From NCBI GenBank assembly GCA_017559385.1, contig JAFYSK010000046.1, positions 1 through 64,000 of the forward strand: DNA of 64,000 bases. Reading direction: 5' to 3'. The notes under the pieces were generated by a model that ran no database searches, was not told the origin of the DNA, and saw nothing but the letters and a program-made list of their open reading frames with translations. The translations under genes were made by a program, and so were the position numbers. Numbering within the stretch: the first letter of the stretch is position 1; each line of letters begins with the position of its first letter. Positions 35,989 to 52,943 of the stretch are shown piece after piece. The DNA is from Paludibacteraceae bacterium (lineage in GTDB: Bacteria; Bacteroidota; Bacteroidia; Bacteroidales; Paludibacteraceae).

Positions 35989-38547
35989 ATGATTGACAAC
36001 GACAGAATTATTCCTGTGAAGATTGACGAGGAGATGCGAACCTCGTACATCGATTATTCGATGAGCGTCATCGTGGCACGTGCTTTGCCAGATGTGCGTG
36101 ACGGCTTCAAGCCTGTTCATCGCCGTGTGCTCTTCGGAATGAATGAGCTGGGAAACACCAGCGATAAACCTACTAAGAAATCCGCGCGTATCGTCGGTGA
36201 GGTGATGGGTAAGTACCACCCACATGGCGATAGTAGTATCTATGGTACCCTCGTTCGTATGGCGCAGCCATGGAATATGCGCAGCGTATTGGTAGATGGC
36301 CAAGGTAACTTTGGTTCTATTGACGGCGATGGTGCTGCGGCTATGCGTTACACCGAGGCGAGACTCTCTAAGCTTGCAGAGGAGATGCTTCGTGACATTG
36401 AGAAAGATACTGTGGATATGCAGCTCAACTTCGACGACTCGCTCAAAGAGCCTGTTGTGTTACCATGTCGATTCCCTAACTTGCTCGTTAATGGTGCTAG
36501 TGGTATCGCGGTGGGTATGGCTACCAACATGCCTACACACAATCTAGGCGAAGTGATTGATGGCTGCGTGGCATATGTGAAGAACGCTGTTGAGCGCATC
36601 CAAAACCCAGAAGCTGAACCTATCACTGTAGCTGAACTAATGGAGTATATCAAAGCTCCTGATTTCCCAACTGGTGGTACTATCTATGGCTACCAAGGTG
36701 TGCGCGACGCGTATGAGACGGGTCGTGGACGTATTATCATTCGCTCTAAAGCAGAGATTGAAACCGAGGATAATGGTCGCGAGCGTATCGTCATTGGCGA
36801 ACTACCTTATGGCGTAGTAAAGTCTGACCTGGTGAAGAATATTGCTGATCTTGTAAACGACAAGAAGATTGAAGGCATTTCTGGTATCAGCGACCAATCA
36901 AAACGCGATGTGCGTATCATTATTGAAATCAAGCGTGATGCTAATGCTCAGGTGGTACTCAACAAGCTATATAAATATACCGCATTGCAATCTAGTTTCT
37001 CTGTTAATAGCATTGCTTTGGTTAAGGGACGTCCACAGTTGCTCAACCTCCACGATATGGTGGCTAATTTCATTGAGCACCGAATGGATGTGGTTATTCG
37101 TCGCACGAAGTACGACTTGCGAAAGGCTGAGGAGCGTGCTCATATCCTCGAGGGCTTGATTATTGCTGTTGATAATATCGATGAAGTAGTTCGTATCATC
37201 CGTGCTAGCCGCACTCCTGCTGAGGCGCAAAGCAACCTCGAAGCTCGTTTCAATCTCGATAACCTACAGTCTAAAGCTATCGTTGATATGCGTCTGTCAC
37301 AACTCACAGGCTTGCGTATCGAGGAGTTGAAAGAGGAGTATAACAAACTTCAAAATCTCATCCAATATCTCAACGAACTTCTCAATGACGAAACAAAACG
37401 TTATGAGGTAATTGAGAGCGAACTTCAAGAGATCAAGGATAAGTATGCTGACGAGCGTCGTACACGCATCATCAAGATGGCTACTGAGTTTAATCCTGAG
37501 GATATGTATGCTGACGACGATATGGTAATCACCATTTCACACCTCGGTTATATTAAGCGTACACCACTAGCAGACTTCCGTCAACAAGGTCGAGGTGGAG
37601 TAGGTGCTAAGGCTAGTTCAGCCCGCGATGAGGACTTCATCGAGTATGTACACCAAGCTAATATGCACTCTACCATGATGTTCTTTACCGAGCAAGGACG
37701 ACTCTACTGGATCAAGGTGTATGATATTCCAGAGGGCAACCGCCAGTCTAAGGGCCGTGCACTCCAAAACATGATTAATATCCAAAAGGGTGACAAGGTT
37801 TGCGCATTTATCCATGTGAAGAACCTTAATGATCAAGAGTATGTGGATAACCACTATCTCATCTTCGCTACTAAGAACGGTCTGATGAAGAAGACTACTC
37901 TCGAGTCATATAGCCGCCCACGCGCTAATGGTATTATCGCCCTCGGATTACGCGAGGATGATCGACTCATTCGCGTTACTCTCACCGATGGTAAGAGCCA
38001 AATGCTCGTAGCTTCATACAACGGTAAGGTTGTTCGCTTCCCAGAAGAGACTATCCGTCCAATGGGACGAACTGCTTCAGGTGTACGTGCTATCAAACTT
38101 GATGAAGATGGCAAGGACTGCGTAGTTGGCATGATTTGCGTTGAAGAGGGTAGCAAGGATACTGTACTCGTGATTTCTAATAAAGGCTACGGTAAGCGTA
38201 CAGCCCTTGATGATGAGAACGGAGAACCTATCTATCGTATCACCAACCGCGGCGGTAAGGGTGTGAAGACCATTAATATCACCGACAAGACCGGTAATCT
38301 CATTGGTATGGAGGCTGTGAACGATGATCAAGACCTTATGCTTATCACTAAGTCTGGTACTGCTATTCGTATGCCGATGACATCTATAAGTGTGCTAGGT
38401 CGTGCTACTCAAGGTGTCAAACTCATCGAACTCCAAAAACGCAACGATACACTCATGTTTGGCTGTGTCGTTCCTAAAGAAGAGATGGAGGAGACAAACG
38501 AAACAGCAGAGGTATCCGCAGAACAACCAATCACAACAGAGGAATAA
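35989..38547 (+). CDS. gyrA: DNA gyrase subunit A
   Basis: Type II topoisomerase subunit that cuts and rejoins DNA, 852 residues. The winged-helix breakage domain carries the catalytic tyrosine in AAMRYTEARLS (Tyr121). The tower and coiled-coil gate follow, then a six-bladed beta-pinwheel C-terminal domain whose first blade contains the gyrase box QGRGGVGAK, marking it as GyrA rather than ParC. The quinolone-determining segment reads HPHGDSSIYGTLVRMAQ: Ser82 (E. coli Ser83) is retained, and Gly86 stands where E. coli has Asp87. The acidic tail is normal. A TPR gene follows by 37 nt, a common arrangement in Bacteroidota. Confidence 0.97.
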   Translation: MIDNDRIIPVKIDEEMRTSYIDYSMSVIVARALPDVRDGFKPVHRRVLFGMNELGNTSDKPTKKSARIVGEVMGKYHPHGDSSIYGTLVRMAQPWNMRSVLVDGQGNFGSIDGDGAAAMRYTEARLSKLAEEMLRDIEKDTVDMQLNFDDSLKEPVVLPCRFPNLLVNGASGIAVGMATNMPTHNLGEVIDGCVAYVKNAVERIQNPEAEPITVAELMEYIKAPDFPTGGTIYGYQGVRDAYETGRGRIIIRSKAEIETEDNGRERIVIGELPYGVVKSDLVKNIADLVNDKKIEGISGISDQSKRDVRIIIEIKRDANAQVVLNKLYKYTALQSSFSVNSIALVKGRPQLLNLHDMVANFIEHRMDVVIRRTKYDLRKAEERAHILEGLIIAVDNIDEVVRIIRASRTPAEAQSNLEARFNLDNLQSKAIVDMRLSQLTGLRIEELKEEYNKLQNLIQYLNELLNDETKRYEVIESELQEIKDKYADERRTRIIKMATEFNPEDMYADDDMVITISHLGYIKRTPLADFRQQGRGGVGAKASSARDEDFIEYVHQANMHSTMMFFTEQGRLYWIKVYDIPEGNRQSKGRALQNMINIQKGDKVCAFIHVKNLNDQEYVDNHYLIFATKNGLMKKTTLESYSRPRANGIIALGLREDDRLIRVTLTDGKSQMLVASYNGKVVRFPEETIRPMGRTASGVRAIKLDEDGKDCVVGMICVEEGSKDTVLVISNKGYGKRTALDDENGEPIYRITNRGGKGVKTINITDKTGNLIGMEAVNDDQDLMLITKSGTAIRMPMTSISVLGRATQGVKLIELQKRNDTLMFGCVVPKEEMEETNETAEVSAEQPITTEE

Positions 38548-38584
38548 TCCTTAAAACTTTAAAAATTTTAAAACTTCTAGTCAT

Positions 38585-39823
38585 ATGAAAAAGTCAATTT
38601 TTCTTGCAGCTCTTCTCCTCATTGGTGTAGGCTGCTTCGCACAAAAAGCTAATGTAAGCAAAGCTCGTAATCTTTGCGATGCTGAGGTTCCTGATTATGC
38701 TGGTGCTAATGAGGCCATCAAGCTAGCTCTTGAGAACGATGAAACAAAAGATCTGCCTAATACATGGTATGTAGCCGGTTATGTAGGATACAAAGAGTTC
38801 TCTTATGGTTTCGACCGTGCTGCGGCTAACAAGGGTGTTTACCAATCTATCAAGTACTGGGAGAAAGCTTACGAACTAACTAAAACTCCACTTAGTTATG
38901 ATAAGAAAGGTAATCCTAAATACGATACTCGTACTCCTAAATCCATCCTTCCTAAGTTGGCAGAGTACTTTGTGAATGCTCCTTTGGTAAATGCAGCTTA
39001 TGCTGCTTACGACCAGAAGAATCTCTCTGAAGCATATGATTATCTCTCAACTCATGTTTATATCCCTAAGATGGATATTTACACTGATTTCCCTGCTGAG
39101 GCTGCTAAGTTGTTGCGCGACACCAACTATTACACCTATGTTAATAACGCTTCTTTCTTCGCGTTTAACTCTCAACGCTATGAGGACGCTATAGCATTGG
39201 GTCAACTCTTAGACGATCACGCAGTTAAGACCGCTCTTAGTCGCGACTTGAAGGAAATTAACGAGCGTATCTATCAATCATATATGCAGCTCAAGGATAC
39301 TGCTAATGCTATAGCTGCAGTGGAGCGTGCTATCCAGATGATGCCAGAGGAGGATAACTTTATACTTATGCTCGTTGATATATATATCGCTCAAAATAAC
39401 GAAGCTAAAGCAATGGCATACCTTGATAAGGTGATTAATAATAGCCCAGATGTAGCACGTTACTATTTGATTAAGGGTGATATCCTTTCTATCATGCTCG
39501 GTAAGTTTGAGGAGTCTTTCCCATACTACGATAAGGCACTTGAATTGGAGCCTGATAACGCAGAGAACCAATTCCAATATGGTGTAGCGCTATACAACTA
39601 TGGTAGTAATATCTACAACGATGCTTCTTCACTCGATTATAATAGCGCTGAGTACAAAGTAGAGGAAGAAAGAAGCTTTGAATACTACAGAAAGGCTCTC
39701 CCATGCTTCCAAAAGGCATATGAACTCGAGCCTACCAACGAACAATACAAGCGTTACCTTGGAAATGCATATTACCGTCTCCAAATGCACGCTGAGATCG
39801 AGGCCCTTGGTATAGAGCAATAA
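38585..39823 (+). CDS. exported tetratricopeptide-repeat protein
   Basis: Protein of 412 residues with a signal peptide (MKKSIFLAALLLIGVGCFAQ). The second half holds TPR units, for example YEDAIALGQLLDDHAV, ANAIAAVERAIQMMPEED, AKAMAYLDKVINNSPDVARY, FEESFPYYDKALELEPDNAE and KALPCFQKAYELEPTNEQ. TPRs mediate protein-protein contacts; the protein is probably periplasmic or outer-membrane attached. It is likely cotranscribed with gyrA, but a functional link is not known. Confidence 0.82.
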   Translation: MKKSIFLAALLLIGVGCFAQKANVSKARNLCDAEVPDYAGANEAIKLALENDETKDLPNTWYVAGYVGYKEFSYGFDRAAANKGVYQSIKYWEKAYELTKTPLSYDKKGNPKYDTRTPKSILPKLAEYFVNAPLVNAAYAAYDQKNLSEAYDYLSTHVYIPKMDIYTDFPAEAAKLLRDTNYYTYVNNASFFAFNSQRYEDAIALGQLLDDHAVKTALSRDLKEINERIYQSYMQLKDTANAIAAVERAIQMMPEEDNFILMLVDIYIAQNNEAKAMAYLDKVINNSPDVARYYLIKGDILSIMLGKFEESFPYYDKALELEPDNAENQFQYGVALYNYGSNIYNDASSLDYNSAEYKVEEERSFEYYRKALPCFQKAYELEPTNEQYKRYLGNAYYRLQMHAEIEALGIEQ

Positions 39824-39836
39824 TCACTCAACAACC

Positions 39837-40250
39837 ATGGGTCGCATTCTAGCGATAGATTTCGGTCGTAAACGAACAGGATTAGCCGTTACGGATCCAC
39901 TCCGTATAACGGCTAATCCGCTTATTACAATACCCACTCATACGCTTGAGGCGTGGCTAACCGACTATTTTGCTAAAGAGGCTGTAGATGAGGTGGTTAT
40001 AGGCCATCCTTATCAAATGAATGGCGAGGACTCTGAGTCTATGCAATATATCCAACCCTTTATCAATCGCTTTCAAAAAGTCTTTCCTAATATGCAGCTC
40101 AAAGAGTATGACGAACGTTTTACTTCCGTCATTGCACATCAAGCTATGATTGCTGGGGGGATGAAAAAGAGCCAAAGACAAGATAAATCAGTTGTTGACA
40201 AATTGGCCGCTTGCATTATTTTGGAAGGCTATTTGGATTCTATACGTTAG
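39837..40250 (+). CDS. ruvX: Holliday junction resolvase-like / pre-16S rRNA nuclease RuvX (YqgF)
   Basis: RNase H-fold protein of 137 residues: MGRILAIDFGRKRTGLAV with catalytic Asp8, VIGHPYQMNGEDSESMQ, LKEYDERFTSVIAHQAM and KSVVDKLAACIILEGYLDS. All acidic active-site residues of the YqgF family are visible. The family is linked to maturation of 16S rRNA 5' ends. It stands 13 nt after the TPR gene and is followed by def, across a 3 x 11 bp repeat. Confidence 0.93.
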   Translation: MGRILAIDFGRKRTGLAVTDPLRITANPLITIPTHTLEAWLTDYFAKEAVDEVVIGHPYQMNGEDSESMQYIQPFINRFQKVFPNMQLKEYDERFTSVIAHQAMIAGGMKKSQRQDKSVVDKLAACIILEGYLDSIR

Positions 40251-40258
40251 CGGTCTTC

Positions 40259-40291
40259 ACTATGTGATTACTATGCGATTACTATGTGATT
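40259..40291. repeat. tandem repeat, 3 x 11 bp
   Basis: ACTATGTGATT (40259-40269), ACTATGCGATT (40270-40280) and ACTATGTGATT (40281-40291), nine bases after the ruvX stop codon. Third example of a 33-bp, three-copy repeat at a gene boundary. Confidence 0.9.
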
Positions 40292-40329
40292 TCGCTACCT
40301 ATATGCTACAATTATTAACACTGAACAAA

Positions 40330-40878
40330 ATGATTTTACCAATATATTTATACGGTCAACCTGTGTTACGTAAGCCCACAGAAGACATTACACCAGAATC
40401 ACTTGACTTACAACAACTCCTTTCTGACATGTGGGAGACACTTGCTGTCGCTGAGGGCTGCGGTTTAGCTGCACCACAAATAGGCAAAGCTATTCGTCTC
40501 TTTATCGTTGATGGAACTGAACTAGCAGAGGATTATCCTGAGTGTCAAGATTTCAAGAAAGTTTTTATCAATCCTGAGATTATTGAGGAAAGCGAGGACG
40601 ACGCTACTTTTGCAGAAGGTTGTCTTTCACTTCCTGGCATTTCTGAGAATGTAATTCGTCCTGCTAGCATCACTATTCGTTATATGGATGAGAATTTTAC
40701 TGAGCATACTGAAACCTACGAGGGTTTTGCTGCTCGTATCATTCAGCACGAGTACGATCATCTAGAGGGACATGTCTTCACCGATCGTATCTCACCTATT
40801 CGTAAGCAGTTTGTTAAAACAAAACTCACCAATATCGCTAAAGGCAAAGTTTCAGCCCGCTACCGCGTTAAACGATAA
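40330..40878 (+). CDS. def: peptide deformylase
   Basis: Metalloenzyme removing the N-formyl group from new proteins, 182 residues. The three signature motifs are intact: GCGLAAPQIG (43-52), EGCLSLPG (96-103, metal ligand Cys98) and HEYDH (140-144, with two His ligands and the catalytic Glu). The reading frame stays open upstream through the 11-bp repeat to about 40192, but those residues overlap ruvX and have no family match, so ATG 40330 (MILPIYLYGQPVL) is taken as the start. Confidence 0.95.
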   Translation: MILPIYLYGQPVLRKPTEDITPESLDLQQLLSDMWETLAVAEGCGLAAPQIGKAIRLFIVDGTELAEDYPECQDFKKVFINPEIIEESEDDATFAEGCLSLPGISENVIRPASITIRYMDENFTEHTETYEGFAARIIQHEYDHLEGHVFTDRISPIRKQFVKTKLTNIAKGKVSARYRVKR

Positions 40879-40886
40879 TTCTGTTA

Positions 40887-41025
40887 GTGTATAGTTTATA
40901 GTGTATAGTTTATAGGAAGAGAAACCAGCGTAGCTGTATCCTCCGCCCATACACCATACACCCATACACCATACACCCATACACCATACACCCATACACC
41001 ATACACCATACACCGTCCACTAAAC
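40887..41025. repeat. repeat element: heptamer arrays around a hairpin core, before mntP
   Basis: Left arm: GTGTATA GTTTATA twice (40887-40914). Core: ACCAGCGTAGCTGTA within 40921-40943, able to fold as CAGC-GTA-GCTG. Right arm: four perfect copies of the 15-mer CCCATACACCATACA (40946-41005) plus a partial copy; on the opposite strand its 7-8 bp units TGTATGG echo the left arm. It ends CCGTCC-ACTAAAC directly at the mntP start codon. The core differs from the one inside cinA (42697-42719) at only two of 23 positions. Confidence 0.85.
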
Positions 41026-41592
41026 ATGACACTAATAACTATCATATTACTTGCCATTGGCCTTGCCATGGATTGTTTTGCGGTCTCAGTCTGCAAAGGA
41101 TTGGCTTCGCCACATGGTTATGTACCACGATACATCAAACCGATGCTCATGGCATTGCTTTTTGGTGTTTTCCATGCTTGCATGCCGCTAATCGGCTATT
41201 TTACAGGTAGTTTCTTTGTTTCTTTCTTCGAACGTTTTGCTCCATGGATAGCCCTCATTTTATTAGGATTTATTGGCGGTAAAATGATATATGACTCGCT
41301 CCATGATGATGACAATGCGGCACATTTAGCTGATTTCTCGTTCGTGGGCTTGTTATCGTTGGCCTTCGCAACATCTATGGACACATTGGCTACAGGTGTT
41401 ATTTTCATTCCTCACCCAGAGGTACTTTGGTTGGCAGTAGCCATTATCGCTCTTACTTGTTTTTTATTTTCCATGACAGGATTTATCCTTGGTCATATTG
41501 TTGGAACTCGCTTGCGTATTAATGTCAATATCCTTGGAGGAGTGATTCTGATTCTTATTGGCATAAAAATCTTCCTCGAAGGAATTCTATAA
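41026..41592 (+). CDS. mntP: manganese efflux pump MntP family
   Basis: Inner-membrane protein of 188 residues with six hydrophobic segments and the two related halves of MntP: LAIGLAMDCFAVSVCKGLAS and SLAFATSMDTLATGVIF, each with the conserved Asp in a membrane helix, plus GFIGGKMIYDS. The family exports Mn2+. No yybP-ykoY manganese riboswitch was recognised upstream; instead the start codon directly follows a repeat element. Confidence 0.9.
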   Translation: MTLITIILLAIGLAMDCFAVSVCKGLASPHGYVPRYIKPMLMALLFGVFHACMPLIGYFTGSFFVSFFERFAPWIALILLGFIGGKMIYDSLHDDDNAAHLADFSFVGLLSLAFATSMDTLATGVIFIPHPEVLWLAVAIIALTCFLFSMTGFILGHIVGTRLRINVNILGGVILILIGIKIFLEGIL

Positions 41593-41594
41593 AC

Positions 41595-41635
41595 ACTAAA
41601 CAGTAGCGGCTCTGCCGCGTCCACTAAACACCAAA
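41595..41635. repeat. repeat core with GCGGC-TCT-GCCGC hairpin before the DUF3109 gene
   Basis: The order is ACTAAAC (41595-41601), core AGTAGCGGCTCTGCCGCGTC (from 41602), then ACTAAAC (41623-41629) and a variant unit, ending four bases before the start codon. The hairpin GCGGC-TCT-GCCGC is at 41606-41618. Related cores lie at 43596-43636, 48017-48037 and, degenerate, at 35937-35961. Confidence 0.8.
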
Positions 41636-41638
41636 CAT

Positions 41639-42223
41639 ATGTTCTTGATTCAAAATACATTAGTTAGCTTAGATGTCTTGGAGAAAGACTTTTGCTGTGA
41701 CTTGGATAAATGTCGCGGTTGTTGTTGTATTGAGGGTGATGCTGGTGCTCCGCTTACAGATGAAGAAGAAGAGAAGATTCATGAGATTCTGCCAATCATC
41801 CTTCCTGACATGACCAAGGAGGCGCGTGCTGTGGTTGAGGCACAAGGATTATCTTACCTTGACCCATCAGGTGAAAAAGTGACTTCTATTGTCAACGATA
41901 AAGATTGTGTCTTTGCTCGCACCGATCACAATGGTTGGTGCTATTGCCTTATAGAGAAGGCATACAACGCGGGTAAGATTGACTTCAAGAAACCCATATC
42001 ATGTCACTTGTATCCTATCCGCCTTAATCATGTTGGTGATATGATTGGGGTTGAGTACCATCGTTGGGATATTTGCCATTGTGCTCGTGTGTTAGGTAAG
42101 AAACTTCACTTACCTATTTATCAGTTCCTTAAAGAACCGCTTATTCGTCGTTTCGGACAAGAATGGTACGATGAACTCTGCTTGGTAGCAGAAGAATGGA
42201 AAAAACAATGCAAAAACTCCTAA
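41639..42223 (+). CDS. DUF3109 family cysteine-cluster protein
   Basis: Protein of 194 residues with a cysteine pattern typical of DUF3109 and YkgJ-type zinc/iron-sulfur proteins: FCCDLDKCRGCCCIEGDAG near the start, DCVFARTDHNGWCYCLIEKA, PISCHLYPIRL and WDICHCA. The cysteines are likely metal ligands. The biochemical role of the family is not known. It overlaps the longest possible cinA frame but not the chosen cinA start. Confidence 0.88.
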   Translation: MFLIQNTLVSLDVLEKDFCCDLDKCRGCCCIEGDAGAPLTDEEEEKIHEILPIILPDMTKEARAVVEAQGLSYLDPSGEKVTSIVNDKDCVFARTDHNGWCYCLIEKAYNAGKIDFKKPISCHLYPIRLNHVGDMIGVEYHRWDICHCARVLGKKLHLPIYQFLKEPLIRRFGQEWYDELCLVAEEWKKQCKNS

Positions 42224-42240
42224 CCCCTGAACTTCATAGT

Positions 42241-43584
42241 ATGCGAGCAGAAATCATTACCATAGGTGACGAATTGCTGATTGGTCAGGTTGTAGATACC
42301 AATTCTGCATGGATGGGAGAGCGCCTCAACGAGGCGGGGATTGAATTGTATCAGATTACATCCGTTCACGACAATCGCGAACATATTCTCAAGGCGATAG
42401 ACGAGGCATTCTCTCGTGTTGATATAGTTCTCACTACCGGTGGCTTGGGTCCTACCAAGGATGATATTACCAAGAATGTCATGTGCGAATATTTTAACAC
42501 CACTCTCATAGAGGATGTTCGCGTACGCACGCACATCCAAGATCTTTACAAAGATCGTCCAGATGCGCTCAACCGACTAACAGCCACTCAATGGCTAGTT
42601 CCTGAGTCTGCTACCATCTTACCTAATAGAGTAGGTAGTGCACCGATTATGGTATTTGATGAGTTTAAAGTTGAACGTTTAAAGTTTAAAGTAAATGAAA
42701 CCAGCGAAGCTGTAACCTCTGACTCTCAACTTTCAACATTCAACATTCAACCTCCAAAGTTCCTTGTTGCCCTCCCCGGCGTCCCTCATGAGATGAAGAT
42801 TGCCATGACCGAGCAGGTACTCCCTTTTCTTAGGTTAAAGGCTAAAGGCGAAAGGCGAGAGGCGAGAGATATTGTTCATCGAACAATTCTAGTTCATGGA
42901 ATTCCAGAATCCAAACTTGCCATACTCATTGAGGATTGGGAAAACGCTCTTCCGGCATATATCCATCTTGCTTACTTACCCAAGGACGGCATTATTCGTT
43001 TGCGTCTGAGTTCATATGGTGAAGCTACTGAAAAAGAGGTTCAATCATATATTGACTCGCTTCTCCCGCTTATTAGTGATTATATACTTGCAAATGAAGA
43101 TATCTCGCTAGAGGCTTTAGTTGGTCGTTTACTCAAGCAGCATGCCATGACTATTGCTACGGCTGAGAGTTGCACAGGTGGTCGTTTAGCTGCTGCATTG
43201 AATGCACAATCCGGTTCCTCTGCATACTACATGGGATCGGTGGTGGCTTATGATAATAGTATCAAAGAGCATGTGCTTGGTGTACAGCAAGATACGCTGA
43301 TGCAGTATGGTGCCGTCAGCGAACAAACTGTGCGCAAAATGGCTGAAGGTGTTCGCGCTTTGATGCACACCGATTTTGCTATTGCTACATCAGGAATAGC
43401 TGGTCCTACTGGTGGTACTCCAGATAAACCTGTTGGTACTGTTTGGATTGCCTGGGCCACTCCTACTGCCACTGAGGCAAAGTGTTTTCATTTTGGCGCC
43501 TCTCGCGAACGCGAACAGATCACCCTCCGCGCAGTTACCGAAGCACTTGTTAGATTAGTCAAATGTCTAAAGTCTAAAGTTTAA
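42241..43584 (+). CDS. cinA: CinA family protein, NMN amidohydrolase, with two repeat insertions
   Basis: Residues 1 to about 170 form the MoCF-like COG1058 domain (MRAEIITIGDELLIGQVVDT, VLTTGGLGPTKDDIT, then LVALPGVPHEMK), and the C-terminal part is the PncC nicotinamide-nucleotide amidase (AESCTGGRLAAAL near 308, YYMGSVVAYDNSIKEHVLGV, TSGIAGPTGGTPDKPVGTVW). Two in-frame stretches have no counterpart in the family: about residues 141-171 (FKVERLKFKVNETSEA, TSDSQLSTFNIQ) and about 198-209 (RLKAKGERREAR). Both are encoded by heptamer repeats. The stop codon also lies in a heptamer array. ATG 42241 begins the conserved domain and avoids the DUF3109 overlap. Confidence 0.92.
   Translation: MRAEIITIGDELLIGQVVDTNSAWMGERLNEAGIELYQITSVHDNREHILKAIDEAFSRVDIVLTTGGLGPTKDDITKNVMCEYFNTTLIEDVRVRTHIQDLYKDRPDALNRLTATQWLVPESATILPNRVGSAPIMVFDEFKVERLKFKVNETSEAVTSDSQLSTFNIQPPKFLVALPGVPHEMKIAMTEQVLPFLRLKAKGERREARDIVHRTILVHGIPESKLAILIEDWENALPAYIHLAYLPKDGIIRLRLSSYGEATEKEVQSYIDSLLPLISDYILANEDISLEALVGRLLKQHAMTIATAESCTGGRLAAALNAQSGSSAYYMGSVVAYDNSIKEHVLGVQQDTLMQYGAVSEQTVRKMAEGVRALMHTDFAIATSGIAGPTGGTPDKPVGTVWIAWATPTATEAKCFHFGASREREQITLRAVTEALVRLVKCLKSKV
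42663..42751. repeat. repeat element inserted in frame in cinA
   Basis: Left arm of five heptamers (GTTTAAA, GTTGAAC, GTTTAAA, GTTTAAA, GTAAATG; 42663-42697). Core ACCAGCGAAGCTGTA (within 42697-42719), folding as CAGC-GAA-GCTG. Right arm of five heptamers (CTCTGAC, TCTCAAC, TTTCAAC, ATTCAAC, ATTCAAC; 42717-42751) that are inverted relatives of the left units. The frame stays open through all 89 nt. Confidence 0.88.
42832..42866. repeat. second heptamer array inside cinA
   Basis: Five units AGGTTAA, AGGCTAA, AGGCGAA, AGGCGAG, AGGCGAG encode RLKAKGERREAR between the conserved LPFL and IVHRT segments. The drift between neighbours is one or two bases, as in stepwise duplication. Confidence 0.85.
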
Positions 43585-43657
43585 AGTCAAATGTCAGTAG
43601 CGCAGCGTCCACTAAACAGTAGGGCTCTGCCCGTCCACTAATCACTAAATACTATAA
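43565..43657. repeat. heptamer array and two hairpin cores between cinA and the LRR gene
   Basis: GTCTAAA, GTCTAAA, GTTTAAA, GTCAAAT, GTCAGTA (43565-43599) contain the cinA stop codon (TAA at 43582). Two cores follow, AGTAGCGCAGCGTCC (43596-43610) and AGTAGGGCTCTGCCCGTCC (43618-43636, hairpin GGGC-TCT-GCCC), each followed by ACTAAAC-like heptamers that run to three bases before the LRR start codon. Confidence 0.82.
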
Positions 43658-43660
43658 AAC

Positions 43661-45985
43661 ATGAAACGTTTAATTCCAATCTTCATCTTTGTGTTCGTAG
43701 CTAACACTTTGTTGGCATATGATTTCAAGCAAAAGCAAATTTGCTACAGTATCATGACTCTGGGCGAGAGTGACACTCCAGTTGCTGTTGTGTCGCAACA
43801 AGAAGCCACAGCTGACAACTACAAGCGTATCACCGAACTGGTCATACCAGAAACGGTGAAATACAAGGGTACAGAATATCCTGTGGCGGCTGTTGGTAAT
43901 GATGCGTTTAAGAATGCCCATTCGCTTGTTTCTGTTACTTTGCCTGCTTCTGTCGTTCAAATTCAGTCTGGTGCTTTCGTCAATTGTATTGCTCTTAAGC
44001 AGGTCACATGTTTAGAAGGTTCAATGCTGCATACTATCGACGACGATGCGTTCTCGGGTTGTATTTCGCTTACTGATCTCAATCTAGGTCATAAGCTCCA
44101 ACATATTGGTCAACGTGCTTTTATCAGTTGTACATCGCTCCAGACCATCAACTTAGGCACAGCGCTTAAGCGTATCAATGAACGAGCATTCGCCCATTGT
44201 ACAGCGCTTACTTCTTTTACTATTCCTGTTTCTACGGAGTATCTGGGAAAAGATATCTTTGATGGTTGCACATCACTCACATCCCTCTCAGTTTTAGCAC
44301 GTTCATGCAAGGTTGATAAAGAGTATATGTCCAATGCCATCAAAGCTCAAATCACCCACATCAGTTTTGGCAATGGGGTAGAGCATATACCTGCTTACTT
44401 GTGCCAGGGCATGACCCAACTGAAAAGCGTATCAATGTCTAATTCGCTTAAGTCCATCAGCCAGAATGCCTTTAGCGGATGTACAGCGCTTGCTGATCTT
44501 GCCTTGCCTGAAACGCTACAGGAGATCCACGAACATGCTTTCGAAGGTTGTACAAGCCTATCGCATATTCGTATCCCTAAGAATGTTACCACGCTCCATC
44601 CCAAGGCTTTTCAGGGCTGCTCATCTCTTACATCAATCGAATGGTGCCCAGTTAATTTCGAATCAAACCACAGCGAATCTATTTTCGAAGCTATAGCTAC
44701 TCAGATCACCCGTTTCACTTTTGATGCTAATGTATCCAGCGTGCCATCTCGTCTTTGCCAGGGTATGACCTCTCTTTCATCTGTGTCCTTGCCTAGCAAT
44801 ATCACCAAGATAGGTGATTGTGCGTTCGAGCGTTGTAGTTCGATGCCATCTATATTGTTCTCTAATAACTTGCAGACTATTGGTTCAGAGGCTTTCAGCG
44901 GTTGTACTTCGCTCACCTCTGTTACACTTCCTAATTCAGTTACAACTTGTGGCAGTGGGGCGTTTGAGGGCTGTACCCAACTCCGTTCCTTCAACTTATC
45001 TACTAGCATGACTAGTATCAGTTCTAAGATGTTAAAGGGCTGTTCATCTTTGGACTCTGTTACCTTTACTTCCTCTATCAATAATATCGAATCAGAGGCT
45101 TTCAGTGGTTGTACTTCGCTAACCTCTGTTACGCTTCCTAACACACTTACTAACTGTGGCAGTGGTGCGTTTGAGGACTGTACTCAACTCAGTTCCTTCA
45201 CATTTTCTACTAGCATGACTAGTATCAGTTCTAAGATGTTCAAAGGCTGTTCATCGCTTCAGTCTATCGAGTTACTATCTTCTATCAATAATATCGAATC
45301 CGAGGCTTTTGCTAATTGCAGTAGCCTTACTGCAATCCATCACCCTACAGGAAACTTAAATATGGCGGAAAATGCCCTCGCTAATTGCTCTGCTATCCTC
45401 CTCCTGCCATATCTGTCAAGTGATTTGAAGATGATGTTAGTTAGAGGTCGTGTCAAGAGTATTGTGGATAATAATTCTGGCTATTCTTACTTACTCGCAA
45501 GTGGTACATTAGACTATACCTATGAGGGTATGTTGGTATCTACATTAATTGAAGAAGATTCTGACGACGAAGATTATGATGAAGATTGTACTACCGAGCT
45601 TGAGCGCAATAGCGAGGGCCAACTCCTTGAGATAGGTGACTGTAGTTGGGGAGATTCATGGACGTACAACGAAGATGGATTTGTTGCTACGCACTCAATG
45701 TTTGATGCTGAATGGGGCCGTGACATTGACTATACATATGAATATAACGAGAATAACGACGTAGTAAAGGCTAATTGTGTTTTTACCAGTAGTGAAGGAA
45801 AGTCCGTAGATACTATTATTTATTCTAACTACAAATACGATGGATATGGCAACTGGATTTCTCGTGATGCAACCCAGGAAACGAAGTCATATAATTACGA
45901 TGTGGCTAGCGATTCATACGTATATGATGCAGAGTCTGATACTTCCGTCACCCGCACCGAAACCCGTGTGATTATATATTATTAG
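43661..45985 (+). CDS. BspA-like leucine-rich-repeat surface protein
   Basis: Exported protein of 774 residues: signal peptide MKRLIPIFIFVFVANTLLAY, then about 20 LRR_5 (BspA/TpLRR) units of 23 residues with the pattern IxxxAFxGCTSLxxVxLP from about 60 to 590. C-terminal to the repeats are an acidic stretch (EEDSDDEDYDEDC) and YD-like strands (DYTYEYNENNDVVKAN, YSNYKYDGYGNWISRD). BspA proteins bind host matrix or other bacteria. A 207-bp (three-LRR) block is duplicated with few changes (shared segment STSMTSISSKM at 45000 and 45207). No type IX sorting tail is obvious. Confidence 0.88.
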   Translation: MKRLIPIFIFVFVANTLLAYDFKQKQICYSIMTLGESDTPVAVVSQQEATADNYKRITELVIPETVKYKGTEYPVAAVGNDAFKNAHSLVSVTLPASVVQIQSGAFVNCIALKQVTCLEGSMLHTIDDDAFSGCISLTDLNLGHKLQHIGQRAFISCTSLQTINLGTALKRINERAFAHCTALTSFTIPVSTEYLGKDIFDGCTSLTSLSVLARSCKVDKEYMSNAIKAQITHISFGNGVEHIPAYLCQGMTQLKSVSMSNSLKSISQNAFSGCTALADLALPETLQEIHEHAFEGCTSLSHIRIPKNVTTLHPKAFQGCSSLTSIEWCPVNFESNHSESIFEAIATQITRFTFDANVSSVPSRLCQGMTSLSSVSLPSNITKIGDCAFERCSSMPSILFSNNLQTIGSEAFSGCTSLTSVTLPNSVTTCGSGAFEGCTQLRSFNLSTSMTSISSKMLKGCSSLDSVTFTSSINNIESEAFSGCTSLTSVTLPNTLTNCGSGAFEDCTQLSSFTFSTSMTSISSKMFKGCSSLQSIELLSSINNIESEAFANCSSLTAIHHPTGNLNMAENALANCSAILLLPYLSSDLKMMLVRGRVKSIVDNNSGYSYLLASGTLDYTYEGMLVSTLIEEDSDDEDYDEDCTTELERNSEGQLLEIGDCSWGDSWTYNEDGFVATHSMFDAEWGRDIDYTYEYNENNDVVKANCVFTSSEGKSVDTIIYSNYKYDGYGNWISRDATQETKSYNYDVASDSYVYDAESDTSVTRTETRVIIYY

Positions 45986-46023
45986 TTGTTAATGTACAAA
46001 GTTTACCAACTACATTCAACTCT

Positions 46024-46069
46024 CGTACACGAGCTCTGCGAGTGATCGTTCGAGCAAACGCGAGATAAG
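46024..46069. repeat. 46-bp direct repeat, left copy, before the AspT-type gene
   Basis: Begins CGTACACGAGCT and ends GAGATAAG. A second copy in the same orientation lies at 47775-47819 after the gene; 37 of 46 aligned positions agree. Both copies are preceded by TTCAACTCTC-type heptamers. Confidence 0.75.
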
Positions 46070-46082
46070 AACTCTCAACAAT

Positions 46083-47741
46083 ATGACCTTCTTCAACGAA
46101 TTATTCATAACTCCTTCCGTCACTCAATCTATCGTCTTATTGACTTTAGTTGTTTTCTTGGGCTTATGGGCTGGTGAACGCCTTAAGATACGAAACTTTA
46201 CTTTTGGTGTCACATGGATTTTGTTTGTTGGTATTGCTCTTTCGGCTTTTGGCTTGACTATTGATGAAGATGTAGCCTCTTTTGCCAAGAATTTAGGACT
46301 TATCCTATTTGTCTATTCTATTGGTCTTCAGGTGGGCCCTTCTTTCTCGCCTTTTGGAAAGAACGGTCTTCGTCTTAATCTCTTGGCTACGGCTATTGTT
46401 CTCTTGGGTTGTATCGTTACTGTGGTATTGCATTATATCACGGGTACGAATATGACTATCATGGCGGGTATTATGTCCGGTGCGGTCATGAACACGCCTT
46501 CTTTGGGTGCTGTTCAGCAGACGGCTTCTGACTTAAACCTAGCCACACCCGATATTGCTATTGGATATGCTTTAGCTTATCCGCTTAGTATTGTGGGACT
46601 TATATTGTCGTTCGAATTAATCCGTTTCTTCTGCCGCGTCAATCTTCGCAAAGAAGATGAGGCACTTCAGCAAGAGCATGTATCAGACGACGATCCTATC
46701 TGCATAGATATTCGTCTATCAATCACGCAGGATGCTACGCTCCAGCAGTTGCACGATCTCTGTCCTTGCCAACACATGCTTGTCACACGTGTCATGCGTG
46801 TGGATGACACCGACGAACTAGTCGATGCTTCTACTGTTTTCCATCCGGGCGATGTGGTGCGTATCGTCAGCGACCGTCGTCACGAGAAAGATCTCCAGTC
46901 TTTAGGCGAGATCACCCACTACGGTTTCCATGGTGGCGAGCGCGATAATCACCTCATCTCGCGCCGTATTGTGGTCACTCGCACGCGTTGCAATGGCAAG
47001 CGCCTAAGCTCTTTTGATGTGCGCCATCGTTACCATGCTACAATCACACGTATCAATCGTGCGGGTGTTGAGCTTTTGGCTACGCCAGATTTAGTTTTGC
47101 AATTAGGCGACCGATTGATGGTTGTGGGCGATCGAGAGGATGTGCGCCATGTAGCGGATATCTTTGGTAATGAGCTCAAACGCCTTGATTTACCTAACTT
47201 GATGCCTATTTTCTTTGGCATTTTCTTAGGGGTCTTGTTTGGATCTTTGCCTATTGCAATCCCGGGTATGGATATCACTTTTAAATTGGGTCTTGCAGGT
47301 GGCTCTTTGATTGTGGCATTGCTGATTGGTCGTTTTGGCCCATATTATAATCTCGTTACTTTCGCTACCACTTCTGCCAATATGATGCTTCGTCAGGTGG
47401 GTTTGACCTTGTTCCTTGCGTCTGTTGCTCTTACGGTGGGACAAGGCTTTGTCTCTACTTTGCTTGCTGGTGGATATATGTGGGTTTTGTATGGTGTACT
47501 TATCACAATGATTCCTTTGTTGTTGGTAGGTTTCTTGGCTTATAAGATAATGAAATTCAATTATTTTAAAGTTGTAGGTCTCCTGATAGGTTCCATGACA
47601 GGTGCCCCAGCTTTGGGTTATGCACAGAGTCTTTCGGATAAGAACGACCAAGCTTCTGTGTGCTATGCTACGGTCTATCCGCTGACCATGTTCCTGCGTG
47701 TGATGGCAGGCCAGCTGCTGATTGTCTTCTTCTGTTCTTAG
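46083..47741 (+). CDS. AspT/YidE/YbjL-type transporter
   Basis: Inner-membrane protein of 552 residues: about five N-terminal membrane segments (SIVLLTLVVFLGLWAGERL, GLILFVYSIGLQVGPSF), a cytoplasmic pair of TrkA-C (RCK_C) domains (about 205-380, CQHMLVTRVMRVDDTDELVD, LQLGDRLMVVGDREDVRHVA), and five more segments (LMPIFFGIFLGVLFGSLPIA to the end). The internally duplicated AspT membrane domain has the conserved NTPSLGAVQ and GAPALGYAQS motifs. Family members are antiporters, such as aspartate/alanine exchangers. The substrate here is unknown. Direct repeats flank the gene. Confidence 0.88.
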   Translation: MTFFNELFITPSVTQSIVLLTLVVFLGLWAGERLKIRNFTFGVTWILFVGIALSAFGLTIDEDVASFAKNLGLILFVYSIGLQVGPSFSPFGKNGLRLNLLATAIVLLGCIVTVVLHYITGTNMTIMAGIMSGAVMNTPSLGAVQQTASDLNLATPDIAIGYALAYPLSIVGLILSFELIRFFCRVNLRKEDEALQQEHVSDDDPICIDIRLSITQDATLQQLHDLCPCQHMLVTRVMRVDDTDELVDASTVFHPGDVVRIVSDRRHEKDLQSLGEITHYGFHGGERDNHLISRRIVVTRTRCNGKRLSSFDVRHRYHATITRINRAGVELLATPDLVLQLGDRLMVVGDREDVRHVADIFGNELKRLDLPNLMPIFFGIFLGVLFGSLPIAIPGMDITFKLGLAGGSLIVALLIGRFGPYYNLVTFATTSANMMLRQVGLTLFLASVALTVGQGFVSTLLAGGYMWVLYGVLITMIPLLLVGFLAYKIMKFNYFKVVGLLIGSMTGAPALGYAQSLSDKNDQASVCYATVYPLTMFLRVMAGQLLIVFFCS

Positions 47742-47774
47742 ACCGTCAACGTTCATCGTTCAACTCTCAACTTT

Positions 47775-47819
47775 CGTACACGAGCTTGGCTAGTGATAGT
47801 TCTGGCGACGGGAGATAAG
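47775..47819. repeat. 46-bp direct repeat, right copy
   Basis: Same orientation as 46024-46069, one base shorter, with conserved CGTACACGAGCT, AGTGAT, GTTC and GAGATAAG blocks. The two copies bracket the transporter gene. Confidence 0.75.
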
Positions 47820-47831
47820 TATTTTCAAGTA

Positions 47832-47860
47832 AAAATGCGCCGTTGATGGCGCATTTTTTT
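47832..47860 (+). terminator. terminator of the AspT-type transporter gene
   Basis: AAAATGCGC and GCGCATTTT form a 9-bp stem with an 8-nt loop, followed by a T-run (TTTTTTT in total). Confidence 0.85.
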
Positions 47861-47867
47861 ATAAATA

Positions 47868-47899
47868 TTTGCGAGAATGTAAAATAAATTGTAACTTTG
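47868..47899 (+). promoter_or_regulatory. upstream promoter of the TPR gene region
   Basis: -33 TTTG (47868-47871) and -7 TAACTTTG (47892-47899), 20 nt apart. It would start about 190 nt before the TPR gene. Confidence 0.75.
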
Positions 47900-47970
47900 T
47901 CAGCGGAATGACGAAGAATCAGTTACAAATACTTCGTTGGGGGCGTTGGCTATAGATATTTCTCGTATTG

Positions 47971-48002
47971 TTTGCGTATGTGCATTATTTTTACTAACTT
48001 TG
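47971..48002 (+). promoter_or_regulatory. downstream promoter of the TPR gene
   Basis: -33 TTTG (47971-47974) and -7 TAACTTTG (47995-48002), 20 nt apart, about 93 nt before the TPR gene. The -33 and -7 boxes are identical to those of the promoter 103 bp upstream. Confidence 0.75.
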
Positions 48003-48016
48003 CAGCATAGAAGAAC

Positions 48017-48044
48017 AGTAACGGCTCTACCGCGTCCACTAAAC
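48017..48044. repeat. repeat core in the leader of the TPR gene
   Basis: AGTAACGGCTCTACCGCGTC followed by CACTAAAC is the same core as at 41602 with two base changes (hairpin CGG-CTCTA-CCG). Confidence 0.75.
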
Positions 48045-48094
48045 TGAGCTACAAGCGCCTAATTTTAAACATTCAACTCTAAACACAAAAAAAT

Positions 48095-49711
48095 ATGAAA
48101 CGACTACTAACCATCCTACTTTCCCTGACACTGACACTAACGCTTGCTTTAGCAGGTCCTAAAAAAGGCATCAATTTTGATTCATATTACATGCAATTAG
48201 GTATGGATGCGCTTAAAAATGGACAAATAGAAGAGGCCTTACAATCATTTGAAAAAGTACTACAAGGGGATTCAACAAATGGATACGCACACTTTTGGAT
48301 AGGAATAGGACTTGCCGATAAAGGTGAAGTAGATGCTTCCTTAACTGCTATCAACAATGCACTGACATATCTACCTAAAAAAGAAAAGTCTTACCTAAGT
48401 TCGGCCTATGGCGTCAGAGCTGAAGTCTATCTGATAAAACAAGACACAACTGCTGCACTAGATGACTATGCTAAGGCAATAAAATGTATACCAGAAAGAA
48501 AATCACTATACGAAGATAGAGCCGAGTTGTACTTTGAATTGCATCAATACGACCTATCCAATAAGGACTATGACAAACTACTAGAACTAGACCCTAATTC
48601 GGTATATGCCTATATGGGTAAAGGTAGAAACTTCCGAGACCTAAAGCAATACGATCTGGCTATCAGGTATTTTTCATATGCATTACAGATGTATCCAAAC
48701 TTCTCGAGAGGATACTCTTTCCGCGCCGAGTGCTTCATCCTGCAAAAAAAATACAACGAAGCAGCGGACGACATCATAGCAGCACTGGATCTAGACGGCG
48801 ACTCTAAGGCTCGTGGCCTGATGATATACAAGTATACTGGCGACAAGATGGACATTATAAAGCATAAACTAGAACGTATGACCCACAAAGAGCCTAAACG
48901 TACTCTGTGGCGCCACAACTTGGCAGTCTTGCTAGAAGCAAATGATCAATACAAAGATGCCATCATGCAATACAAAGAGGCTAAACGCATTAACCCAAAT
49001 GCAATAGTGGATGAGCGCATAGCAGTATGCCACGCTAGTATGGGCAACTATGCCAAAGCACTGGAGTACCTCAATCTAGTAATAGCCAAAGATACTACCA
49101 AAGCTAATCTGTACAGCAGACGTGCACACTACTACAGCGAACTGGGTGAGTATCAAAAAGCCATAGAAGACTACGACAAGTACGTAGAAATGATGCCTGG
49201 CAATAGTAGAGCGTATTTCTTGCGTGGTTGGGAAAAACATATGGCAGGACAGCACGAAGACGCTATAGAAGACCTGAGCATATCCATCAATATGGATAGC
49301 ACCTTTTCTGTAGCCTATGATGGTCGCGGTAGAAGTTACTTGTCACTTGGACAAATAGACCTAGCCAAAGCCGATTTTGAGAAGATACTAAGCTTTGACA
49401 CCGTGCCGGCTACTAACTCATGCGCCGCTTTTGCGTACCACTTCCTCGGACAAGACTCAATAGCCATTGACTACGCTTTGCGCTGCCTAGAGGTAGATCC
49501 ACGCACTTTATATAATGTGGCTTGCGCGTACGCACTAGCAGGCAATGCAGAGAAGGCTGTAGAGTACTTGCGAAAAGATTTTGAAGACGGTTTTGTTCGC
49601 TTGTACCACCTAAGCAGAGATGTTGACTTTGATGCTATCCGACAAGATCCTGCATTCCAAGCACTGATAGAAGAATACACCCAGAAAATCCAGCAAAGCT
49701 GGGTAGAGTAG
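48095..49711 (+). CDS. exported tetratricopeptide-repeat protein
   Basis: Protein of 538 residues with a signal peptide (MKRLLTILLSLTLTLTLALA). Almost all of the mature part is TPR units: QIEEALQSFEKVLQGDSTNG, TAALDDYAKAIKCIPERKSL, YDLSNKDYDKLLELDPNS, YDLAIRYFSYALQMYPNFSR, YQKAIEDYDKYVEMMPGNSR, HEDAIEDLSISINMD. It ends IQQSWVE. A scaffold or adaptor role in the periplasm is likely. It has two promoters of its own. Confidence 0.85.
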   Translation: MKRLLTILLSLTLTLTLALAGPKKGINFDSYYMQLGMDALKNGQIEEALQSFEKVLQGDSTNGYAHFWIGIGLADKGEVDASLTAINNALTYLPKKEKSYLSSAYGVRAEVYLIKQDTTAALDDYAKAIKCIPERKSLYEDRAELYFELHQYDLSNKDYDKLLELDPNSVYAYMGKGRNFRDLKQYDLAIRYFSYALQMYPNFSRGYSFRAECFILQKKYNEAADDIIAALDLDGDSKARGLMIYKYTGDKMDIIKHKLERMTHKEPKRTLWRHNLAVLLEANDQYKDAIMQYKEAKRINPNAIVDERIAVCHASMGNYAKALEYLNLVIAKDTTKANLYSRRAHYYSELGEYQKAIEDYDKYVEMMPGNSRAYFLRGWEKHMAGQHEDAIEDLSISINMDSTFSVAYDGRGRSYLSLGQIDLAKADFEKILSFDTVPATNSCAAFAYHFLGQDSIAIDYALRCLEVDPRTLYNVACAYALAGNAEKAVEYLRKDFEDGFVRLYHLSRDVDFDAIRQDPAFQALIEEYTQKIQQSWVE

Positions 49712-49729
49712 GCAGGCGCGCAGCGGAGC

Positions 49730-49832
49730 TGCAGTTTGAGGACGGCACAAAGTGCCTGTAGATCGGGCAAAGCCCTGTAGATCGCCTGCTGCTTGAAGTT
49801 GAATGTCTAAAGTTGAAAGTAAAAAGTATATG
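49730..49832. repeat. hairpins and heptamer array running into the SDR start codon
   Basis: Two hairpins, GGCACAAAGTGCC and GGGC-AAA-GCCC, each followed by TGTAGATCG. Then five heptamers GTTGAAT, GTCTAAA, GTTGAAA, GTAAAAA, GTATATG (49798-49832). The last heptamer contains the likely start codon of the SDR gene (ATG 49830). The TGTAGATC motif recurs in the insertion inside the aldehyde dehydrogenase gene. Confidence 0.8.
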
Positions 49833-50597
49833 TACGCACTAATCACAGGAGCTAGTTCAGGGTGTGGATACGAATATGCACGAGTAATGGCTAGCAGAGG
49901 ATATGATCTACTCATAGTAAGCAACGAAGAGGCTATACACGACAAAGCAGCGCTTCTTCGCCAAGATTATACCGTTAATGTCATTTCTCTCGTGCAAAAC
50001 CTAGGCACACAAACTGCTGCCAAAGAACTATACGAATACTGCCAAACACAAGCACTAGAAGTGGAAGTGCTAATCAATAACGCTGGCGTATACCACGACC
50101 GCGACTTCCTAGATGACTCAGAGGCATTCAACGAACTCATCTTCAATCTGCATATGCATACACCCGCTATGCTGATGTACTACTTCGCACAAGATATGGC
50201 GAAACGAGGCAAAGGATATATCCTTAATATGTGCTCCATCACTGCCGACATAGCCGTGCAACGACTTGGCAGCTACAGCGCTACCAAATCCTTCCTAAGA
50301 AACCTCACACGCTCATTGCACGTAGAACTCAAAGGCAAAGGCGTATATATTACCGACGTAACACCAGGAGCCATCAACACCGGACTATATAACATCCGTC
50401 CATGGCTCACTAAGATGGGACTCGTACTTGGATATATCGTTGAACCACAACGCTTAGCACGACGCGCCGTAAGATGCATGATGCGTGGAAAAGCCAAAGT
50501 ATCCATACCCGGCGTATGGAACACTATCTTGCTAGCCCTAGTGGCATTGGTGCCAACTTGTCTGCTCAGATTGATTAGACGAATGGGATTGTTCTAG
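49830..50597 (+). CDS. short-chain dehydrogenase/reductase
   Basis: NAD(P)-dependent oxidoreductase of about 255 residues. The cofactor motif MYALITGASSGCGYEYA opens it, NNAG follows (VLINNAGVYHD), and the catalytic Ser-Tyr-Lys set is visible in NMCSITADI and SYSATKSF. A hydrophobic C-terminus (NTILLALVALVPTCLLRLI) suggests membrane association, as in SDRs acting on lipids. The frame also offers ATG 49803, but its nine extra codons (MSKVESKKY) are repeat sequence, so 49830 is preferred. It converges on the aldehyde dehydrogenase with the two stop codons overlapping in CTAG. Confidence 0.88.
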   Translation: MYALITGASSGCGYEYARVMASRGYDLLIVSNEEAIHDKAALLRQDYTVNVISLVQNLGTQTAAKELYEYCQTQALEVEVLINNAGVYHDRDFLDDSEAFNELIFNLHMHTPAMLMYYFAQDMAKRGKGYILNMCSITADIAVQRLGSYSATKSFLRNLTRSLHVELKGKGVYITDVTPGAINTGLYNIRPWLTKMGLVLGYIVEPQRLARRAVRCMMRGKAKVSIPGVWNTILLALVALVPTCLLRLIRRMGLF

Positions 50598-52009: not shown

Positions 52010-52063
52010 GAATCTGCCTGTTTTCTCTTCGTATTCCTTCGGAGTTCCTTCGGTGAGGTTCCG

Positions 52064-52096
52064 ATGAAGTCCCTATGAAGTCCCTATGAAGTCCCT
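52064..52096. repeat. tandem repeat, 3 x 11 bp
   Basis: ATGAAGTCCCT occurs three times without a mismatch (52064-52074, 52075-52085, 52086-52096) in the 124-nt gap between the SDR and aldehyde dehydrogenase genes. Fourth 3 x 11 bp repeat in the window. The flanks hold looser repeats (TTCCTTCGGAG). Confidence 0.92.
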
Positions 52097-52133
52097 ATGG
52101 ATACAGGTGGCAGATAGGTGGCAATAAAAGGGG

Positions 52134-52943
52134 TTACTTAGTGCGTCCTGTGAAATTATCCATTGCATGATAGATGCCAAAAACTGTGCCAAAGACGAAG
52201 TCAAAGACACGAATTGGCAGAATAGCTTGCCAAAAACGGATAAAATGGAAGCCAAATGGTATGCCACGGAAGGTTTGGTTGCGTTCGATGGCACAAATAA
52301 TCTTTTTGGCAGTAGGTTCCGGCTTTTGTATTGGCAGAAGAGGTGACTTCACGCCGTTGAACATACCCGTGTTGATGAAGTAGGGTGCAATGGTGGTCAC
52401 ATGTACGTTGGATTTCATCTCTTGTAGTTCGATACGCACGGAGTCGCTCCAACCGATAGCCGCCCATTTGCTAGCTGCATAGACAGACATCTTGGGGTTG
52501 GAAAGCATACCTCCCGCCGAAGCGATATTGCAGATATGACCGCTATTGCGACGTAGCATATCGGGGAGAATCTCCTTGGTGATGATCATCGGAGCAATGG
52601 TGTTGACCTCCAATGTGAGGCGGATATCTTGCTCGGTTTGTTGGTCAAACGTTTTGTTCCCACGAACGATTCCCGCACAGTTAATCAGGATATCCACTCC
52701 TCCACACTCCTGTTTGATTTGCTGATAGGTAGAAGCTACTAATAGACTGTTTGTGATGTCCACTTTATAGATATATACACGTCCGCGCGAAGCGAACTCT
52801 GCTGCTGTGGCTTCTATTGCTTCTTGATTCACATCCCAAATAATCAACGCTTTAGCCCCTTTTTCTAACGCCATCCTGCCCATAATTTTGCCAATTCCAG
52901 ATGCTCCACCTGTGATTAGCACATTTGCATTTTTCAGTTTCAT
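52134..52943 (-). CDS. short-chain dehydrogenase/reductase
   Basis: Oxidoreductase of 269 residues: cofactor loop NVLITGGASGIGKIMG, acidic residue in IIWDVNQEA (suggesting NAD preference), LINCAGIV, and catalytic residues in NIASAGGMLSNP and VYAASKWAA (YxxxK). The C-terminus (FWQAILPIRVFDFVFGTVFG) is hydrophobic, as in retinol dehydrogenase-like and lipid-acting SDRs. It is first in an operon with the aldehyde dehydrogenase and is read divergently from the TetR gene. An alcohol-to-aldehyde step followed by aldehyde oxidation is a reasonable inference. Confidence 0.9.
   Translation of the reverse strand: MKLKNANVLITGGASGIGKIMGRMALEKGAKALIIWDVNQEAIEATAAEFASRGRVYIYKVDITNSLLVASTYQQIKQECGGVDILINCAGIVRGNKTFDQQTEQDIRLTLEVNTIAPMIITKEILPDMLRRNSGHICNIASAGGMLSNPKMSVYAASKWAAIGWSDSVRIELQEMKSNVHVTTIAPYFINTGMFNGVKSPLLPIQKPEPTAKKIICAIERNQTFRGIPFGFHFIRFWQAILPIRVFDFVFGTVFGIYHAMDNFTGRTK

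Follow-up and report, generated by a model that had tools for sequence, protein, structure and literature searches.

A palindromic element in frame in cinA of a Paludibacteraceae bacterium, probably one copy of a dispersed repeat family with inverted heptamer arms

The cinA gene of a Paludibacteraceae bacterium (assembly GCA_017559385.1) carries, in frame, a 91-nt palindromic element that is best read as a dispersed, protein-coding palindrome similar to the Rickettsia palindromic elements (RPEs), with a new architecture. The insert is probably one copy of a non-autonomous repeat family, whose members would be copied as a folded strand, survive in certain genes and pass between species by recombination. 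The window referred to below is the whole stretch of DNA analysed, 64,000 nt from contig JAFYSK010000046.1; its own genome is a 2.0-Mb draft, 85% complete (84.9%). All of the genomes examined closely are draft MAGs, and the nearest named relatives in the comparison are Paludibacteraceae MAGs from ruminant guts. The element, its host gene and a second copy nearby are placed as follows.

42241..43584, + strand, cinA coding sequence, host of the element
42662..42752, + strand, palindromic element in frame in cinA (91 nt; CinA residues 141-171, EFKVERLKFKVNETSEAVTSDSQLSTFNIQP)
42662..42691, + strand, left arm of the cinA element: AGTTTAA AGTTGAA CGTTTAA AGTTTAA (four heptamers) plus AG
42702..42712, + strand, core hairpin of the cinA element, CAGC-GAA-GCTG
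42723..42752, + strand, right arm of the cinA element, CT plus four inverted heptamers
40886..40977, + strand, intergenic copy between def and mntP, with the same core and arms TGTATAG / CCATACA; its right array extends to about 41014

Both elements follow the plan described in an earlier, sequence-only reading of this DNA, namely a heptamer array, a hairpin core and an inverted heptamer array. The cores (42697-42719 and 40921-40943) agree at 21 of 23 positions, as that reading had it, and the arms are unlike in sequence. In the cinA element, 10-nt spacers lie on both sides of the hairpin CAGC-GAA-GCTG. When W stands for the two positions that differ and up to three mismatches are allowed, the core pattern occurs at exactly two places in the 64 kb and at none in 100 shuffles. 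The claim that the reading frame is kept, with residues 141-171 added, also holds: the frame is stop-free over 469 codons, and the ends of the element are refined to 42662-42752. The match to the MoCF_biosynth domain takes in the insert and spends 195 residues on 143 profile positions. RNA fold z-scores are -2.5 for the cinA element and -4.9 for the mntP copy (40885-41014); for the 27-nt core alone, the values are unremarkable in cinA (-1.4) and modest in the mntP copy (-2.4). No Rfam model reached its gathering score over 38000-52500, where a plant miRNA model gave a far sub-threshold match at the mntP copy.

CinA was compared with its counterparts in fifteen relatives (two partial), including the outgroups Saprospiraceae (L020) and Algoriella (L021). 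The position of the element is a variable loop in this alignment, and the identical 31 residues are found in one relative only, the MAG RGIG906 (L015 = G164). The segment had been taken for an insertion, and distant relatives agree, as it is absent from CinA of both outgroups. Across the genus, 137 of 151 genomes searched have a CinA match; 90 loci were fetched, of which 83 were parsed and seven were not. A 14-residue loop occupies the position in 58 of the 83, among which the segment occurs solely in the window's own CinA. Alignment with related Bacteroidales, proposed earlier as a check, therefore places the insert as absent from most relatives.

Comparison of the window with RGIG906 reveals a tract of identity that extends beyond the element.

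42622..42759, + strand, 138-nt tract identical to cinA of the MAG RGIG906

Identity between the two cinA genes is 81% over the whole gene and 80% when the element is excluded. The identical tract takes in 40 nt of coding sequence to the left of the element; no stretch longer than 62 nt arises in 2000 column shuffles, and the second-longest run without a difference measures 59 nt (43393-43451). Given that other same-core copies differ by 13-23%, the tract is explained poorly by constraint and well by recombination. The tract thus points to a probable exchange between species by recombination.

Copies with this core are also present elsewhere in both genomes. The 98-nt focal DNA has a long match on contig C50 of its own genome (87%, bases 5-80), and in RGIG906 matches contigs C6 (cinA, 100%), C5 (84%) and C37 (77%). 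When the loop is left free, the core occurs at three places in the window's genome and four in RGIG906; absence of the core from the rest of the genome would have told against a repeat. The same-core copies are few (seven). Their loops are GAA, GTA, GCC, TTA and AAA, their heptamer arms are all in the same phase, and they align without gaps in one alignment, or with a single 2-nt gap for the mntP copy in another. The core-only pattern AAACCAGCNNNGCTGTA finds 10 places in five of 178 genus genomes, but it was rejected as a description of the whole family, as three of these places (in G166, G067 and G178) are armless and look like chance matches. The heptamer part of the focal DNA, taken alone, has matches in 132 of the 178 genomes. 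The earlier suggestion of a mobile or expanding repeat stands as regards dispersal and the occurrence of copies both within and between genes; the word 'mobile' would rest on this dispersal at unrelated loci rather than on an observed move.

The covariance search that had been suggested finds the plan across the genus, inside and between genes. At E≤0.01, a model of the same-core copies (R1) has matches in 49 of the 178 genomes of the genus, and a model from 34 copies with the paired arms set by the analyst (R2) has matches in at least 63 of 178 at E≤0.001 under stricter search filters; in both cases the copies used for training match by construction, and weak matches may be inflated by heptamer-rich DNA. 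High-scoring R2 matches usually occur on both strands. Many R1 matches have the same length and plan with other cores, and others of different length were left out. Forty-three copies, hand-picked from the R1-based match rows (72 + 47, both strands counted), were laid out and have the plan in common; those excluded for another length or plan were L236, L238, L239, L241-L244, L246-L256 and a weak window match at 43547. The usual copy is 86-97 nt long: a left arm of four heptamers followed by AG and a right arm of CT followed by four inverted heptamers enclose a hairpin, mostly of 4-5 bp, with a spacer of about 10 nt on either side. In other species, most copies differ in their core.

Six copies have been placed in the window's own genome: those in cinA and before mntP, that on C50, C61:52025-52118, C28:1702-1796 and C63:40809-40919, the last found by both R1 and R2. 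The cinA copy alone lies inside a long ORF. Outside the genus, a search of the order with the peptide profile matched one of 247 genomes, which is the window's own. A scan of 294 kb from the own genome, 123 kb from relatives and 29 kb from RGIG906 for arms of inverted heptamers detected this core family only; its threshold is too strict for counting copies, because even the mntP copy was missed.

Base pairing in the hairpin is conserved. When 34 copies are aligned with MAFFT, 99.3% of cells at the four stem pairs are paired, a share that drops to 50% or less when the partners are slid along the alignment. Two-sided changes number 14, compared with 4.0 in shuffles, and covariation is 0.346 as against 0.182, with none of 500 shuffles as high. 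Twelve copies were picked from protein-profile matches covering the core (eleven open, one with a stop). In 11 of the 12, the first base of a Ser/Gly/Cys codon pairs with the third base of an Ala/Thr codon (A-T in six, G-C in four and T-A in one, with one A-C). As the third base of the Ala codon is silent, the pairing is not explained by the peptide. Arm-to-arm pairing gives a different picture. With the register re-optimised, arms pair with their own partners at 21.4 of 30 positions and with swapped partners at 21.7, and 16742 of 20000 permutations reach the self value. A first, positive test of arm covariation was discarded as biased, the register having been fitted to self; the unbiased test was negative. 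Over the 34 copies, 69.8% of arm cells are paired in register, compared with 66.3% at -7 and 70.6% at +7. The mntP copy, in which both arms have changed together, is the single counter-case.

Copies inside genes occur in unrelated hosts. In the R1-derived set, a long ORF runs through five of the 43 copies; the genes concerned are cinA, an epimerase gene, a glycosyltransferase gene and two GT2 genes. A profile of the five peptides has matches in 15 of 178 genomes at E≤0.01. Seventy copies were placed from 72 sources chosen by the analyst. An ORF of 180 codons or more runs through 10 of them, and these ten agree in strand and phase; since peptide or protein searches supplied five of the ten, 10/70 is not an unbiased rate. 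The hosts of in-frame copies are CinA, UDP-GlcNAc 2-epimerase, glycosyltransferases and a FemAB protein, and Pfam confirms Epimerase_2, Glycos_transf_2, Glyco_trans_1_4 and FemAB. Their element peptides can be aligned, which gives a conserved peptide in unrelated host genes. Stops interrupt most frames in the majority of the 34 aligned copies, so the common coding frame reflects survival at least in part. Four of the ten genic copies represent one UDP-GlcNAc 2-epimerase site (in G054, G072, G100 and G163), and the copy in G163 is preceded by an extra partial arm; the epimerase gene of the window's own genome lacks the element. In two genomes, several in-frame matches share a contig, with four on G054:C89 and four in three ORFs on G100:C70.

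Related inserts were seen in two further settings. NAD-dependent DNA ligase genes of L284 (G058) and L305 (G072) share the position of a partial in-frame peptide match, which is confined to the left arm. In L319 (G055), the UDP-GlcNAc 2-epimerase gene has another palindromic insert (CTCCCCCCTGAAGGGAGGAG ... CTTCCCTTCAGGGAGGGG) in the same loop.

Heptamer arrays are not confined to this element, and two more lie in or at the end of cinA in the window.

42832..42869, + strand, second in-frame heptamer array in cinA (site 2), without a hairpin core
43557..43596, + strand, heptamer array over the cinA stop codon

Period-7 arrays, of many different heptamers, are present in cinA at the position of the element (site 1) in 10 of 83 genomes and at site 2 in 26 of 83. 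Around the same 83 loci there are none in the 300 nt upstream and one in the 150 nt downstream. Heptamers therefore form or settle repeatedly in cinA loops and, because the genus has many loop arrays without the core, not every heptamer insert in cinA is this element. In 294 kb of own DNA, the commonest periods are 11 (18 arrays) and 7 (15 arrays), with none in one Markov simulation. Heptanucleotide repeats have been described as the commonest class in most repeat-rich genomes, with polymerase slippage as the proposed cause (Mrazek et al., 2007, as reported in the available part of PMC4679880).

Other tandem repeats were noted in the same material. The D-Ala-D-Ala ligase (L067:400-1461) and M28 peptidase (L067:7810-8817) genes, both on contig C63 of the own genome, contain in-frame heptamer arrays such as STLNSQHSTLNIQ. 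Tandem arrays of 11-nt units (ACTATGTGATT, TCGCACAATAA and similar) lie at 40259-40291, 11332-11366 and L014:4201-4306; that at 40259 occupies a spacer in which relatives have hairpin modules or heptamers. At 44885-45309, a 207-nt tandem repeat lies in a long ORF with repeated leucine-rich-like segments.

The abundance of such arrays raises an alternative in which nothing moves: slippage would make the arrays, and template switching across a small hairpin would make the inverted arm, so that each element grows in place. The arrays of many units at the same two cinA loops, the lead of periods 7 and 11 over a simulation with none, and the joint change of both arms in the mntP copy are all consistent with this. 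Growth in place does not, however, yield the same 23-nt core and spacers at unrelated loci, nor a fixed four-heptamer plan with a common hairpin over 34 copies, and we regard it as unlikely. It is a decidedly poor prospect that the element is instead a structured RNA or regulatory element (a terminator, attenuator or mRNA stabiliser) under selection between genes, with the coding copies accidental. Sixty of the 70 placed copies do lie outside ORFs of at least 180 codons, and base pairing is kept, but coding copies keep the hairpin by compensating changes even across Ser/Gly/Cys swaps, and the Rfam search of 38000-52500 gave no match at gathering score.

Two further alternatives concern the cinA insert itself. 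Palindromes and tandem arrays are hard to assemble and the genomes are draft MAGs, so an assembly artefact of metagenome bins might be suspected; yet the insert is identical in the window's genome and RGIG906 despite cinA flanks that are about 80% identical, and the epimerase-gene copies stand at one site in four genomes, which makes an artefact very improbable. The identical segment in RGIG906 could suggest a conserved or clade-typical part of CinA rather than an insertion. This was already refuted by the outgroup proteins and by the 14-residue loop of 58 of 83 genus CinA sequences, and element copies lie at unrelated loci; its probability is negligible.

The reading as a dispersed palindrome family leaves the question of how copies arise. 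A fixed unit at unrelated loci means that copying is needed. New copies would arise by copying of a folded strand, moving as units, and most would land between genes. Those surviving in genes would be the copies that are stop-free in one frame and that lie at loops where the protein fold tolerates about 31 extra residues. After insertion into a gene, the element may pass between species by homologous recombination. The route we favour, at somewhat less than an even chance, involves an enzyme that acts in trans on the hairpin and copies the folded strand. A second route, which is possible but rather doubtful, is recombination or template switching between copies; template switching is known at quasi-palindromes. 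No transposase partner emerged from a search for the Y1_Tnp family (PF01797), which was without a match in the 84.9%-complete own genome and had weak matches in five of 12 same-genus genomes. Inspection of sites by eye revealed neither a target-site duplication nor a clean empty one.

Several known repeats resemble the family in part. Elhai, in 2008, reportedly described small dispersed repeats in Nostoc with a short hairpin core embedded in heptameric arrays. To our knowledge, these are not a fixed four-heptamer unit with inverted arms and are not known for a common coding frame. The terminal inverted repeats of a MITE would have their counterpart here in the inverted heptamer arms, at the in-register pairing given above. 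The TAACTGA heptamer arrays of Beggiatoaceae, cyanobacteria and five Bacteroidetes, with two sets in Paludibacter and some in ORFs, consist of one heptamer in direct repeats, and the available part of their description gives no palindromic core, in contrast to the inverted arms and core found here (PMC4679880).

The closest likeness, to the RPEs, had been proposed from the sequence together with a difference in architecture, and both points are supported. According to the portion of PMC10969869 available, RPEs are palindromic and dispersed, occur between genes and in frame in unrelated genes, and encode a conserved peptide; they are about 150 bp long and form ten families (PMC10969869, citing Ogata 2000 and 2002). 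The present family is about 91 bp long, has four-heptamer arms and belongs to a different phylum. RPEs of R. conorii end in CGTC, and CGTC-type REPs, among which RPEs are counted, seem to be without a dedicated transposase (PMC3733652, available part). CGTC or GACG lies within 12 nt of an end in one of 34 copies of our family, and anywhere in seven of 34. As the CGTC end is absent and size and plan differ, the family is not filed as an RPE; the two are set apart by their descriptions. GTAG- and CGTC-tagged REPs are likewise small palindromes found inside genes in several species, those of the CGTC type being reported in Bacteroidetes, and the same partly available source gives them as 20-40 bp with a tag at one end (PMC3733652); our family appears to lack such tags. 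The focal core was considered as a GTAG/CGTC-like hairpin module and dropped, since the tags do not fit. No such elements in Bacteroidales were found described in the literature searched, which was mostly without subscription papers and without preprints, in keeping with the earlier statement that none was known.

A second hairpin family was observed in the same DNA. Its modules consist of CTAAACAGTA, a stem-loop-stem with very variable stems, and GTYCACTAAA, and lie at 41595-41630 and 43611-43644 (+ strand) and 49732-49788 (- strand); their ends resemble both the GTAG and the CGTC REP tags. A search with the flanks (6-24 nt inside) found 110 places in 14 of 101 genus genomes, compared with one match for the reversed-pattern control. 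Of the interiors, 105 of 110 fold to a 3-5 nt loop and 56 are distinct; 28 distinct 13-mers form 131 of 140 pairs, with at most 106 in 10000 shuffles. Across the order, the pattern matched one of 247 genomes, again the own genome. Scanning own DNA more loosely gave a weak result (25 matches, with 13 for the reversed pattern and 8-13 simulated). The aldehyde dehydrogenase gene at 50594-52009 (- strand) contains in-frame modules of the TACA-GGC-GAA-GCC-GATC type (insert about 51039-51096), with different modules at that site in relatives L008 and L015. At cinA site 2, two in-frame hairpin modules replace the heptamer array in L013 (6548-6605) and L019.

It is conceivable, if rather speculative, that Bacteroidales have protein-coding palindromes of their own as shared cassettes, with recombination between in-frame copies moving gene segments from one species to another, as in cinA, and remodelling genes for surface polysaccharides. 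For cinA and the UDP-GlcNAc 2-epimerase gene, natural versions with and without the element are available. An independent family in another phylum, of another build, with a single frame and silent-site pairing, would make selfish spread testable, together with the survival of such elements inside genes and the creation of new protein loops.
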